Virus record (IMG/VR): IMGVR_UViG_3300043444_000295 | Span: 1-22,545 of that record | Origin: a virus | Reading direction: 5' to 3' (one strand) | Length of the DNA stretch: 22,545 bases | Shown: in pieces, positions 7,220 through 13,879 of the stretch | Numbering within the stretch: the first letter of the stretch is position 1 | Layout: each line of letters starts with the position of its first letter | Made by a program: the position numbers and the translations under genes | The notes under the pieces: model-generated | What the model was told of the DNA's origin: nothing | Seen by the model: only the letters and a program-made list of their open reading frames with translations | Database searches by the model: none

Positions 7220-8002
7220 ATGGCAGAAATCAAACATTTAAATGAATCCGAAATCCAACAAATGACCTTCGATTGGAGGTATAGAGGTTGGACAGTATTA
7301 CAACTTCTTACTGAAGAAGAGTGTGATGAAATCAACGAAGAATTGGAACGATTAAGACAAGAACGTTCTAAGACTACAAAAGAAAATGGAGATGATTGGG
7401 GTGAGTGGGACCCGTTTGCATATCCACATAAAATTTCACCAAAATTAGAAAAATTATTTGCACATCCAAAAGTTTTGGAAGCATGTGAATTTCTTATGAA
7501 AGGAGAGGTTGTTGGATTACAAACTTGGTCATATTTTAAACCACCAGGACAATTGGGCAGAGACCAACATCAAAACGCTTTCTACACAGGATGTGGACAC
7601 AATGAAATCATTAATACCGCATTGGCATTAGATAATCACGATAAAGAAAATGGAGCAGTATGGAACTATGAGGGTTCTCATAGATTGCCTGTTTTACCAA
7701 TTGAAGTGGATGAGGAAAGAACAAAAACAAATCCAACATTTTGGAGAAACGAAAGAGGTAAACCATGTGTTATGCCAGAGGGACATGATTTCCGTAAAGT
7801 AGAAGGTTATTTGCAAAAAGGACAAGTGGTATTATTGCATTCGCATTGTGTACATGGTTCAGAACCAAATAACTCTAATAGATTCAGAAGAAACTTCTTA
7901 GGTGGATATTTGAAGAAAGGTGCATATTTTAATCAAGGTGGTCATATGAAAAGAGAACCAATTGATATGTACGAACTTCGTCAAAAACATTGGGGAGAAT
8001 AA
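7220..8002 (+). CDS. PhyH-type Fe(II)/2-oxoglutarate dioxygenase-like protein
   Basis: This 260-residue protein matches the phytanoyl-CoA dioxygenase (PhyH) family found in many T4-like marine phages. The N-terminal helix carries 'EEECDEINEELERLR' (about 32-46). 'RDQHQNAFY' (114-122) stands where the first metal-binding HxD motif is expected, with His117. 'ENGAVWNYEGSHRLP' (143-157) is a typical core strand. The distal metal His is probably His212 in 'HCVHGSEPNNSN', followed by an Arg (222-224) that would bind 2-oxoglutarate. The acidic ligand of HxD is Asn119 here, so normal iron binding is doubtful. The substrate is unknown. It is preceded by its own promoter-like site and a terminator, so it is separately expressed from the tail genes. 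Confidence 0.8.
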   Translation: MAEIKHLNESEIQQMTFDWRYRGWTVLQLLTEEECDEINEELERLRQERSKTTKENGDDWGEWDPFAYPHKISPKLEKLFAHPKVLEACEFLMKGEVVGLQTWSYFKPPGQLGRDQHQNAFYTGCGHNEIINTALALDNHDKENGAVWNYEGSHRLPVLPIEVDEERTKTNPTFWRNERGKPCVMPEGHDFRKVEGYLQKGQVVLLHSHCVHGSEPNNSNRFRRNFLGGYLKKGAYFNQGGHMKREPIDMYELRQKHWGE

Positions 8003-8034
8003 TTTGGATAATTAAAATATTTTTTGTATATTTG
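8003..8034 (+). promoter_or_regulatory. Bacteroidota-type promoter for the polymerase gene
   Basis: TTTG (8003-8006), 20 bases, TATATTTG (8027-8034) matches the -33/-7 promoter consensus fully. The start codon at 8041 is only seven bases after the -7 box, and an in-frame TAG at 8035-8037 rules out an earlier start, so the mRNA would be almost leaderless. Confidence 0.75.
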
Positions 8035-8040
8035 TAGGGT

Positions 8041-9309
8041 ATGAATTTAATAGAAACTAAATCTACCCTACATTTTTTTGTCAAATCAAATCCAACAATT
8101 GATTTGATAATTCCCGTATGGAGTTCTCGAAAAGCACATCCATTGACCAGTCGTATATCATTTGTATATTATAGAGAAACAAATGGAAACGATGGTATAA
8201 TTAATTTCAATCATATTGATGCAAAGAAAATCGATAAGTTTGATTTGAATATCTTTATTACTGATACAACAAAAGTATTAGGAAGTAGATATATAAGCAA
8301 ATTGGGACTTGATTATGAATGGGTTTATTTCGAATCATATGGAAAACCATTTGTATTTGATGAATTCGTAGAATCGGTTTATAGGGGGTATAGAATTGAT
8401 TTTAAAGAATTAAATGATTGTGTACCTCTAATGAAGTGGTATGGTATATTAAAAACAATACCGACAATAAATCATATAAATGATTGGGATGTAAACTATT
8501 CATCAGCTATCCGAACATTAGGGAGGCTGGAGGGGGCGGGGGTGAAAGTCGAAGAAGAAAAATTTATTGATAGTTTTAATTTTGATGCGTCTTATCTCAA
8601 AAGAGGATTGGTGTACACACAATACAATCCATATACAATAACGGGTAGACCTTCGAATAGGCATTTAAATGTAAACTATTCTGCCTTAAACAAATCGGAT
8701 GGGAGTAGGGAATGTTTTGTTAGTAGGAATCCAAACGGAACTCTCTTACAATTCGATTATGAGTCTTATCACTTACGATTGATAGCGGGATTAATAGGGT
8801 ACAAACTTCCAACAAACATATCGGCTCACCAATATTTTGCCGACATCTATGGTACGGATTACGAAACTTCCAAAGGGATTACATTCCGTTATCTTTATGG
8901 GGGGTTAGATGATACGGCTCGAAGGATTCCGTTTTTTCAAAAGGTGGATGAATATATCAAATCCGTTTACCAAAAGTTCGTAATTTCCGGTCGTTTAACG
9001 ACTCCTCTATATAAGAGGGAAATTCATTTTAGTAGAATCGAAGGGGCGACTGAACAAAAGGTATTTAACTATTTGTTACAAGCGTTGGAAACTGAAGTGA
9101 ACTATATGAAGATGAAATCCATCTTTGATTGTTTTGAGGGAAAGATGAGTAAACCGATTTTATATACATATGATGCGTTCTTAATTGACCTACATCCAAT
9201 TGAAAGAGATGTGATTATTAGTTCAGTAAAAGAAGCAATGGAAATGGGTGGATTCCCTGTCAAAGTGGAAGAAGGAACTAATTATGGTAATTTAGTTGGA
9301 ATAGATTAA
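8041..9309 (+). CDS. Compact divergent family A DNA polymerase
   Basis: This 422-residue protein has a recognisable family A polymerase core in residues 155-422. 'TITGRPSNRHLN' (199-210) matches the T-x-x-GR motif. Motif A is 'FDYESYHLRLIA' (238-249) with catalytic Asp239. Motif B is 'KGITFRYLYG' (278-287) with Lys278, Phe282 and Tyr286 in the canonical spacing. Motif C is 'YTYDAFLIDL' (375-384) with catalytic Asp378. Against E. coli Pol I, the steric-gate Glu710 aligns with His244, Arg754 with Tyr274, and the His and Glu of the HDE motif with Tyr377 and Ala379. Residues 1-150 are unlike a normal 3'-5' exonuclease, and no complete DEDD set was recognised. It presumably copies the phage genome, but the fingers and thumb look shortened. 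The gene has G-runs unusual for its surroundings. Confidence 0.78.
   Translation: MNLIETKSTLHFFVKSNPTIDLIIPVWSSRKAHPLTSRISFVYYRETNGNDGIINFNHIDAKKIDKFDLNIFITDTTKVLGSRYISKLGLDYEWVYFESYGKPFVFDEFVESVYRGYRIDFKELNDCVPLMKWYGILKTIPTINHINDWDVNYSSAIRTLGRLEGAGVKVEEEKFIDSFNFDASYLKRGLVYTQYNPYTITGRPSNRHLNVNYSALNKSDGSRECFVSRNPNGTLLQFDYESYHLRLIAGLIGYKLPTNISAHQYFADIYGTDYETSKGITFRYLYGGLDDTARRIPFFQKVDEYIKSVYQKFVISGRLTTPLYKREIHFSRIEGATEQKVFNYLLQALETEVNYMKMKSIFDCFEGKMSKPILYTYDAFLIDLHPIERDVIISSVKEAMEMGGFPVKVEEGTNYGNLVGID
8521..8542 (+). other. G-rich tract inside the polymerase gene
   Basis: Between 8521 and 8542 the + strand has G runs of 3, 2, 2, 5 and 5, separated by short loops, in an otherwise AT-rich genome. 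It encodes Gly-Arg-Leu-Glu-Gly-Ala-Gly. The run pattern could form a two- or three-layer G-quadruplex in the transcript or coding strand. Other G runs in the same gene are at 8384-8388 (five) and 8899-8904 (six). Confidence 0.4.
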
Positions 9310-11665: not shown

Positions 11666-12085
11666 ATGAATACACAACTTTTATGTTTGTTTACATATAA
11701 AAATGAATTAGAAACTTCATTGGATTTTATAATGAGTAATTACACATTAGTAAATCCGAATGTATTTGTATTAGAAAGTAAATTGATAGATACTGAATTA
11801 TTTATCACATTTAATATTGAAAAAGGAACTGCACCGATAGATTCTAATTGGAAAACTATTCTTGTACATAGAAAAAAGCAATCAAATACAATATACACAA
11901 TCAATGCTTTAAACGAAGTAGTTAAATCAAAGACTGGTGGTATGTTAGATAACTCTTATATGATTGATTGGGAAGAATTCAGAAATTGCATACTCACAAC
12001 TTCAAATTTAGGATATAAGAAAATTCCTACAAAAGTTTATAAAAACTTAAAAACAAATTCTTCGGAAGAAAGTTTGGAATATTAA
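11666..12085 (+). CDS. Small unknown protein
   Basis: This 139-residue protein is unrecognised. It has alternating beta and helix: hydrophobic start (residues 3-9), a 'LFITFNIE' strand near 50-57, 'TILVHRKKQSNTIYTINALNEVV' region near 64-87 and 'DWEEFRNCILTT' near 100-111. I recall similar 'TIYTINALN' stretches in other T4-like phage hypothetical proteins, but cannot name a family. There is no membrane segment. The start follows the stop of the 766-residue gene by three bases, so the two are probably translated from one mRNA. The stop is followed directly by the next promoter. Confidence 0.65.
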   Translation: MNTQLLCLFTYKNELETSLDFIMSNYTLVNPNVFVLESKLIDTELFITFNIEKGTAPIDSNWKTILVHRKKQSNTIYTINALNEVVKSKTGGMLDNSYMIDWEEFRNCILTTSNLGYKKIPTKVYKNLKTNSSEESLEY

Positions 12086-12104
12086 AATAATTTTCTTATA
12101 TTTG
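12073..12104 (+). promoter_or_regulatory. Bacteroidota-type promoter for a small-gene cluster
   Basis: TTTG (12073-12076), 20 bases, TATATTTG (12097-12104) gives a full consensus with the same spacing as the polymerase promoter. The next ATG (12109) is five bases after the box, so the transcript would be leaderless or carry about two bases of leader. The -33 box lies inside the end of the preceding gene. Confidence 0.72.
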
Positions 12105-12108
12105 TGGT

Positions 12109-12447
12109 ATGAAGGAAGCATACCAACCTATCGAAATTCACATTAAAAATCCTATCAATCTATTCAATGAACATAGATTGGAAATTTCAAAAGCCATAGT
12201 AAATGGTATTGAATATGGTATGTCCAATCGAAAACAAAAAATAGATTTTGCAAAAGTAATTGTTAAGGATTTAATTGTTATCACATTATCAATTAAGAAA
12301 AAAGAATTCTCTGGATTATTAGATGAGCATTTAAAAATTCTCGTTGAATATGAAGAATATGAAAGTTGTGCGTTAATAATGAAACTAAAAGAAAAACTAA
12401 ATAAGAAAAATGAAAAAGTTACTAAAAAAAATCGAATTTTGGATTGA
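12109..12447 (+). CDS. Small unknown Lys-rich protein
   Basis: This 112-residue protein is unrecognised. It is strongly basic and helical: Ile/Lys-rich helices at 45-75, then 'FSGLLDEHLKILVEYEEYESCALIMKLKEKLNKK' region residues 66-99, ending in a Lys/Asn-rich tail. There is no membrane or catalytic motif. It sits directly behind a consensus promoter with almost no leader and overlaps the start of a 41-residue gene in another frame by 38 bases. It is probably an early accessory protein. Confidence 0.62.
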   Translation: MKEAYQPIEIHIKNPINLFNEHRLEISKAIVNGIEYGMSNRKQKIDFAKVIVKDLIVITLSIKKKEFSGLLDEHLKILVEYEEYESCALIMKLKEKLNKKNEKVTKKNRILD

Positions 12448-12538: not shown

Positions 12539-12892
12539 ATGCCAGAAATTAAAGAAGAAACCGCAAGAGAATTTTGCGAAAGAGAATTTCCACAAATGAT
12601 GGAAGAGTTCAAAAAGATTCAATCTGAAATGTATGAAACCTTTTGTAAGAAACAAAGGAATTATGGACCCGGTAACATTTCAGTAGGAACACCATTACAA
12701 ACCAAAGAAGATATTAAACTATCACTCACAGGTCTTTGGTTCAGAATCAATGATAAAGTACAACGATTAAAACAATTGGTAGTTTTAGGACAGCCAGATG
12801 AGGTGGGAGAATCGGTTCAAGATACATATGAAGATTTATCGGTATATGGTATTATTGCACAAATTGTGAGTAGAGGAAAATGGGCAAAATAA
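12539..12892 (+). CDS. Nmad1/DUF1599-like protein
   Basis: This 117-residue protein resembles the nucleotide modification associated domain 1 (DUF1599) family, small all-helical proteins common in phages and related in fold to MazG-like nucleotide pyrophosphatases. The family pattern is visible as 'KKQRNYGPGN' (37-46), a 'GLWFRINDKVQRLKQL' helix (65-80) with Arg69 and Asp72-Lys73, and 'ESVQDTYEDLSVYG' (91-104) with acidic residues Glu91, Asp95 and Asp99 that could bind a metal ion. The activity of the family is not firmly established, and a role in nucleotide metabolism is inferred. It starts three bases after the 41-residue gene, and its end overlaps a possible 34-residue frame. Confidence 0.72.
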   Translation: MPEIKEETAREFCEREFPQMMEEFKKIQSEMYETFCKKQRNYGPGNISVGTPLQTKEDIKLSLTGLWFRINDKVQRLKQLVVLGQPDEVGESVQDTYEDLSVYGIIAQIVSRGKWAK

Positions 12893-12984
12893 ATTTGGAA
12901 AATACCAAAAAATATTGTATATTTGTGAAACAAAATGGAAAAAGGTTATATTTAGATATAGAGGATATCGCGATAAAACCTTAA
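12880..12984 (+). CDS. Possible 34-residue frame overlapping the SSB promoter
   Basis: An ATG at 12880 opens a 34-residue frame ending at TAA 12982-12984, with 'FVKQNGKRLYLDIEDIAIKP' at its C-terminal end. It overlaps the previous gene by 13 bases. Its sequence is plausible for a small protein. However, it runs straight through a consensus promoter and a structured leader that better explain the same bases, so it may be chance. Confidence 0.25.
   Translation: MGKINLENTKKYCIFVKQNGKRLYLDIEDIAIKP
12894..12925 (+). promoter_or_regulatory. Bacteroidota-type promoter for the SSB gene
   Basis: TTTG (12894-12897), 20 bases, TATATTTG (12918-12925) matches the consensus in full. The SSB start is at 13022, so the leader would be about 94 bases, far longer than for the other promoters in this window. 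Confidence 0.72.
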
Positions 12985-13012
12985 ACATTAAACTTAATTA
13001 TTAACTTTAAAA
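12942..13012 (+). promoter_or_regulatory. Structured and repeat-containing leader of the SSB gene
   Basis: The leader has two parts. First, GATAT (12955-12959) and ATATC (12965-12969) can pair across a five-base loop AGAGG, and loop bases 12961-12964 can pair with CCTT (12979-12982), giving a possible H-type pseudoknot ending 39-40 bases before the ATG. An alternative stem AAGGTT/AACCTT (12942-12947 and 12977-12982) encloses the same region. Second, five TTAAN units begin at 12981, 12988, 12994, 13001 and 13007, a spacing of six to seven bases. T4 gene 32 mRNA is known to carry a pseudoknot followed by an unstructured AU-rich site through which gp32 represses its own translation. The same logic is inferred here, not proven. 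Confidence 0.45.
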
Positions 13013-13021
13013 CGTAAAAAA

Positions 13022-13879
13022 ATGGACATTAAACTTGCCCTATCGAGATTCAACTCGTTACAAAACACTTCCAAAAAATCAGATTCACTTTGGAAGCCAA
13101 CTCCAGGGAAACATCAAATTCGTATCGTTCCCTACAAATTCAATAAAGATATTCCTTTCATTGAATTATTCTTTCACTACAACATTAACAACAAAACTTA
13201 TTTGAGTCCTGCATCATTCGGCAGACCTGACCCTATCGTAGAGTTTGCTGAAAAGTTAAAACGCACTGGCGATACTGATGATTGGAAAGCAGGTAAGAAG
13301 ATGGAGCCGAAATTGAGAACTTTCGCACCTGTTATCGTAAGAGGTAAAGAGAATGAAGGTATTAAATTTTGGGGATTTGGTAAGACTGTTTATCAGGATA
13401 TCTTAGGTTACATCGCTGACCCGGATTACGGAGATATTACTGACCCAATGAGTGGTAGAGATATCGTATTAGAAATCACTTCAGCAGAAGAATCTAACGC
13501 AGCTTATCCAACAACTACAATTCGTGTTAAACCATCTCAATCTAAATTAGTAGAAGATGCTTCTCAAATTGAATCTCTATTGGAGAATCAAAAGAATATT
13601 ACTGAATTATATTCAGAATTATCTTACGCTGAATTAAAAACAGTATTAGAGAATTGGTTAAATCCAGGTTCAGCAACAACCGGAGCTGATGAAGTAGTTG
13701 AGGAATTGGAAGCACCGAAACCAGCTCCAAAGCAAGCATCAGTATCAACTGATATGGGTGGTACATCTCCTATTGGTGGTGAAGGTATTGGTGATTTACC
13801 TTGGGAAAAAGAAGAAGCTGCAGCTCCAAAAGCAAAAGATGATGTAGCATCTGCATTTGAAGATTTATTCAATAACTAA
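13022..13879 (+). CDS. gp32-like single-stranded DNA-binding protein
   Basis: This 285-residue protein has the layout of T4 gp32 (301 residues). It has a short N-terminal segment (1-25) for cooperativity, an OB-fold core (about 28-200) with 'KHQIRIVPYKF' (30-40), a 'HYNINNKTYLSP' strand (52-63) and 'KFWGFGKTVYQDILGYI' (115-131), and an acidic C-terminal tail (about 222-285) ending in 'AFEDLFNN'. It coats single-stranded DNA during replication and recombination, and its tail is expected to recruit partners. Unlike T4 gp32 it contains no cysteine, so the zinc site is absent: His52 aligns with a T4 zinc ligand, but the CPVC segment aligns with DPIV (70-73). The uvsX gene follows after 14 bases. 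Confidence 0.82.
   Translation: MDIKLALSRFNSLQNTSKKSDSLWKPTPGKHQIRIVPYKFNKDIPFIELFFHYNINNKTYLSPASFGRPDPIVEFAEKLKRTGDTDDWKAGKKMEPKLRTFAPVIVRGKENEGIKFWGFGKTVYQDILGYIADPDYGDITDPMSGRDIVLEITSAEESNAAYPTTTIRVKPSQSKLVEDASQIESLLENQKNITELYSELSYAELKTVLENWLNPGSATTGADEVVEELEAPKPAPKQASVSTDMGGTSPIGGEGIGDLPWEKEEAAAPKAKDDVASAFEDLFNN

Follow-up and report, generated by a model that had tools for sequence, protein, structure and literature searches.

The analyzed window is a stretch of 22,545 nucleotides representing the IMG/VR virus record IMGVR_UViG_3300043444_000295. It carries a gene for a single-stranded DNA-binding protein (SSB) preceded by a long untranslated leader (Table 1). The window SSB is a member of the gp32 family. 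It matched PF08804 (gp32 family) with an E value of 2.8e-16 and 60.6 bits, above the Pfam curated cut-off of 26.8, and was also matched to PHROG SSB families. A PDB profile search based on 18 relatives, with T4 left out, recovered the gp32 structures of T4 and RB69 (E about 1e-6 to 1e-5). The cores of RB69 and T4 gp32 were also the top structural matches (E 2e-10 and 3e-9, respectively) of the AlphaFold model of the window SSB, which had a pLDDT of 72.8. The protein is around 23% identical to T4 gp32, and its acidic C-terminal DDLF resembles the DDLL of T4. The lack of cysteines described in an earlier reading of this DNA from the sequence alone (the sequence-only reading) holds for all 285 amino acids; the aligned SSB relatives, too, lack the cysteines that bind zinc in T4 gp32. 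The nearest annotated SSB relative (54% identity) belongs to Microcystis phage Mel-JY01 (L082, PP395634), to which a cyanobacterial host is assigned; its SSB promoter nonetheless looks Bacteroidota-type (TATATTTG). The gene upstream of the SSB leader (12539-12892) showed a weak match to DUF1599, a nucleotide modification associated domain, just under the Pfam cut-off. Inspection by eye also revealed, at 7220-8002 among tail and replication genes, a protein resembling a phytanoyl-CoA dioxygenase-type enzyme.

Table 1: Features of the SSB locus in the window.
Feature	Positions	Strand	Description	Basis or remark
Promoter	12894..12925	+	Bacteroidota-type, TTTGG-N19-TATATTTG	Predicted start about 12930
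SSB mRNA leader	12930..13021	+	92 nt	Promoter position plus ORF start
Candidate nested hairpin	12942..12982	+	AAGGTT 12942-12947 with AACCTT 12977-12982, enclosing S1	Minimum-energy fold
Conserved segment	12944..12954	+	GGTTATATTTA, directly before the inner stem; includes GGTT, 5' arm of the candidate nested helix	Alignment of relatives
S1 hairpin	12955..12969	+	GATAT 12955-12959 with ATATC 12965-12969, loop AGAGG	Re-paired in relatives
S2 5' arm	12961..12964	+	GAGG, inside the S1 loop	Loop AGG in 45/46 distinct cores
S2 3' arm	12979..12982	+	CCTT, closes the candidate pseudoknot at -67..-40; also 3' end of the candidate nested helix	Pseudoknot search
TTAA units	12981..13010	+	Five units in an unstructured A/T-rich stretch	Starts 12981, 12988, 12994, 13001, 13007
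SSB gene	13022..13879	+	gp32-family single-stranded DNA-binding protein	285 aa, no cysteine

In promoters of this type the -7 box lies at positions -12 to -5 relative to the transcription start (PMC9723704), which places the start of the SSB mRNA at about 12930. The general form of the promoter was matched 10 times in the window, compared with 1.5 matches expected by chance. When 87 distinct leaders from relatives were compared, 77 had retained this promoter with the same spacing, and the predicted leader length was 92-97 nt. The window has three other intergenic promoters of this type, at 8003, 12073 and 16850, which lie about 0-20 nt from their genes. Thus, the SSB leader is unusual in its length, in agreement with the sequence-only reading, which had put it at roughly 94 bases and the others at about 20 or less. 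The promoters at 8003-8041 and 12073-12109 come to within about 4-6 nt of the listed start codons and predict leaderless or nearly leaderless mRNAs for both genes. An mRNA starting downstream of 12982 had been named as incompatible with a folded element in the SSB leader; the conserved promoter sets the predicted start upstream of the element. The sequence TATATTTA at 12947-12954, immediately preceding S1, is the same in nearly all relatives, and neither of the folds described below accounts for it. A second promoter at this site, which would start an mRNA inside the element, is disfavoured: its -33 box reads TTTA in roughly half the relatives, and its spacing is 21-22 instead of 20. TATATTTA may represent another -7 box or an RNA processing site like the one at -71 in T4.

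The leader was analyzed with a purpose-made search for H-type pseudoknots, and the outcome was tested against 300 shuffles of the leader. For the window, this search yielded a candidate pseudoknot formed by GATAT/ATATC (S1) and GAGG/CCUU (S2) at positions -67 to -40 (P = 0.01). The final pair of S2 is a G-U pair. The known pseudoknot of T4 gene 32 was found by the same search, also at -67 to -40, and none of the 300 shuffles was as good. The coordinates previously proposed for the pseudoknot (12955-12982) and for the TTAA starts were confirmed on the sequence. In the energy test a coding-sequence control in the window's clade scored nearly as well as the leader. The energy argument alone is therefore weak, and the strength of the case rests on the comparison of relatives. 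RNAalifold applied to a MAFFT alignment of the leaders gave no structure; loop indels misalign the arms. Rfam searches gave no match in the window at gathering scores, and the leader stayed without one up to E = 10. This means little, since the T4 leader also has no Rfam match above gathering.

The SSB proteins in the clade of the window are about 71-100% identical; 68 distinct leaders were compared first and more were added later. Within this clade S1 is re-paired as GATAT/ATATC, CTATAT/ATATAG, TAGTTAT/GTAGCTA and GTAAT/ATTGC. S1 arms paired far better with their own than with swapped partners (-4.88 versus -3.51 ± 0.30; 0 of 20000 swaps), in a permutation which ignores shared ancestry and with registers that were partly picked by pairing. 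S1 is weakened in the leaders L260, L321 and L345 and in the L390-394 group. The only distinct core without the loop AGG, L366, has GAG instead, with CUC available downstream. For S2 the swap test revealed no covariation in the window's clade (P 0.07-0.18). AGG and CCU hardly vary, and S2 is consequently left without covariation support in this clade. Relatives lacking both the repeats and any compensatory changes had been anticipated as the finding that would contradict the proposed element; both the repeats and such changes exist. The pseudoknot is the likely fold in the window's clade.

A sister clade, with SSBs about 60-65% identical, carries stems of different sequence at about the same place (GGTGT/ACACC, CGAGT/ACTCG, AAGTGT/ACACTT and GATTCC/GGAATC). 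S1 was 100% paired in 18 aligned stems, and both sides had changed in 4 of the 5 pairs. In the swap test, S1 pairing was -10.2 for own versus -5.4 ± 0.47 for swapped arms. S1 and S2 taken jointly gave a covariation score of 0.394 versus 0.112 in shuffles, 0 of 500 being as high. The S2 swap test was at first not significant when partner positions were unrestricted. With the partner limited to the homologous arm 4-15 nt downstream and 2 bp allowed, a test shaped after inspection, own pairing was -4.69 versus -3.56 ± 0.30 for swapped pairing (P 5e-5 over 19 distinct loops, ignoring shared ancestry). The pairs of S2 switch between GG/CC, AG/CU (L463), AGUUU/AAACU and ACAG/CUGU (L482, L486). The longest S2, UAAGUUUG with UAAACUUA, comprises up to 8 bp; in many members the S2 core consists of just two G-C pairs. 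The element is missing from four leaders of this clade (L447, L448, L452 and L481). As judged from these comparisons, both stems covary in the sister clade.

In a third clade, with SSBs about 51% identical, the leaders contain strong predicted pseudoknots of unrelated sequence, for example L522 with a 9-bp S1 and an 8-bp S2, L569 and L529. The 25 leaders scored gave a mean z of -3.66 and 64% of them fell below -2.5, compared with none in three control segments; the T4 leader reached a z of -4.0 in a matching single-sequence run. Direct reading of L507 versus L522 revealed a one-base deletion on either side of S1 with the pairing kept. The pair count, with 95.9% of cells paired and little variation, lends no covariation support in this clade. 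At L143-clade loci the control segment 172-250 nt upstream of the SSB also scored as structured (mean z -1.26, 22% below -2.5); it is possibly the terminator of the preceding gene. Independent stem changes amount to only a handful per clade, and at that number the comparison of relatives supports a real RNA element.

The folded element is followed by the UUAA-rich stretch. Five TTAA units in 44 nt occur with P = 0.02 by shuffles, the 20 other window genes are preceded by 0-2 units, and the exact array has one match in the window. Relatives contain 3-5 units in 59 of 68 leaders and five in 12 of 68. The five units after the folded element thus stand as first described, while their 6-7-nt spacing is limited to a minority of relatives. 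The suggestion that this spacing is set by the protein footprint is not supported, as the number and spacing of the units vary between relatives.

Apparently, this arrangement resembles the gene 32 operators of T4, T2 and RB69. There, as here, a gp32-family SSB gene lies downstream of a pseudoknot of about 28 nt (a candidate in the window) at -67 to -40, followed by about 40 unstructured nt that contain UUAA(A) repeats and reach to the start codon (PMC535899, PMC3014915). In T4 and RB69 the binding of gp32 is nucleated at the pseudoknot and extends from there across the start region, which is rich in UUAA (PMC535899, PMC3014915). In contrast to T4, the window element shows no evident similarity to the T4 sequence, the window's clade has a competing nested hairpin, no Shine-Dalgarno-like sequence precedes the SSB start codon and the SSB is devoid of the zinc cysteines. 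The stems also differ in length, with an S1 of 5 bp and an S2 of 3-4 bp in the window compared with 4 bp and 7 bp in T4. RB49 gene 32 of a T4-like phage is likewise a gp32-family SSB gene; its leader was reported to have no pseudoknot, and PMC535899 and PMC3014915 disagree on its UUAA units. The STAXI RNA motif (RF01728) is also a pseudoknot motif found near genes including SSB (PMC2864571). It consists of tandem repeated pseudoknots and is listed for Enterobacteriales, and the window is without an Rfam match.

On balance, we consider the leader to be probably an autogenous translational operator of the T4 gene 32 type whose sequence is unrelated to that of T4. The 5' part of the mRNA would fold compactly, the loop of the S1 hairpin pairing with CCUU to form an H-type pseudoknot. 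The 40 nt 3' of this element would stay unstructured and extend, rich in UUAA, into the start codon. SSB in excess of single-stranded DNA would nucleate on the folded element and spread cooperatively across the UUAA-rich stretch, so that ribosome entry is blocked. When single-stranded DNA appears, SSB would be drawn off and translation would resume. By analogy to T4 we infer that translation of the SSB is repressed by the SSB itself, bound to its leader, and we likewise infer that the pseudoknot is the active fold in the window's clade. Of the T4-like control put forward in the sequence-only reading, the folded element with the UUAA-rich stretch behind it, the long leader and the gp32-family SSB are retained; the footprint ruler formed by the TTAA units is abandoned.

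A different fold may serve the same autogenous operator. The pseudoknot and the nested hairpin are mutually exclusive because both use the same CCU. Variants of the hairpin are the predicted minimum-energy fold across 68 leaders, with z mostly between -1 and -5, and in the window's clade it is predicted to be slightly more stable than the pseudoknot. The protein might thus recognize an ordinary long hairpin, AAGGTT/AACCTT around GATAT/ATATC, and read AGG as its loop. The outer arms do exceed shuffles in complementarity (mean z about -1), GTTT variants have AAAC as their pairing partner, and the outer helix is perfect in L256, L320, L364 and the L390-394 group. It is also perfect in the subclade of L377, L390-L394, L398 and L410, in which S1 is cut to about 3 bp. 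However, the GG of the conserved GGTTATATTTA segment is replaced in 9 of 40 cores, and all nine retain AGG and CCU; AGG is kept in 45 of the 46 cores overall. Furthermore, the outer helix exhibits no two-sided covariation, and sister clades have little or no outer helix while their loop-to-downstream pairing covaries. We therefore regard the long hairpin as an unlikely choice for the recognized fold. Either fold leaves 12984-13021 single-stranded, so the functional layout is the same with both.

The distribution of the element bears on its specificity. The window contains a single strong match to the element sequence model, located in the SSB leader, and this model, made from the window's clade, also has one strong match in every one of five related phage records (176-238 kb). 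A blastn match in a PinkBerry-associated phage was discarded; it covers only 37% of the query and has no annotated SSB gene nearby. The element is absent in the Flavobacterium immuto clade, where a hairpin overlapping the promoter is found instead; UUAA units are present there too. Leaders of the set L085-164 are heterogeneous: several subfamilies have simple hairpins, and several leaders are without the element. In several gp32-family SSB leaders of L105-L157, such as L105 and L122, simple hairpins were seen near the predicted mRNA 5' end (for example ATCAAG-GTTACA-CTTGAT and GTTAC-GAAA-GTAAC). On the sequence comparison, the element appears common, not universal, among the gp32-family SSB genes compared.

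A 5' stabilizer or processing signal, prolonging the life of the SSB mRNA without SSB binding, would fit the simple hairpins which several other subfamilies have at that place, and the sister-clade hairpin does sit at the predicted mRNA 5' end. T4 gene 32 mRNA, too, is unusually stable and is cleaved at -71, adjoining the pseudoknot (PMC3014915). Such a role, however, requires neither a pseudoknot nor S2 covariation nor UUAA units, and each phage record has the element once, at the SSB gene only; we judge this explanation improbable. A small protein gene, or what is left of one, conserved as coding sequence, can practically be dismissed as an account of the leader: the open 34-codon frame from 12880 (MGKINLENTKKYCIFVKQNGKRLYLDIEDIAIKP) does pass through the window leader, but it is broken in relatives, where frame-shifting indels vary its length between 8 and 41 aa while the stems persist, and it has no PHROG match.

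The preferred reading, an autogenous operator recognized as a pseudoknot, may extend further. Tentatively, such operators might be general to gp32-family SSB genes and might have been rebuilt repeatedly from unrelated sequences in large non-T4 phages. The SSB would then read the shape of the pseudoknot together with the UUAA-rich tail, not the sequence, and the window's clade may toggle between a pseudoknot and a hairpin sharing one strand. The same layout was found with unrelated sequences in some 150 distinct metagenomic phage leaders in three clades. The T4 layout in the SSB leader suggests that this self-control reaches far beyond the relatives of T4. If the SSBs bind these leaders, they would constitute a natural experiment on the recognition of one RNA by its shape through a sequence-blind DNA-binding protein, and they would also inform on how translation is controlled where the host makes no use of Shine-Dalgarno sequences.
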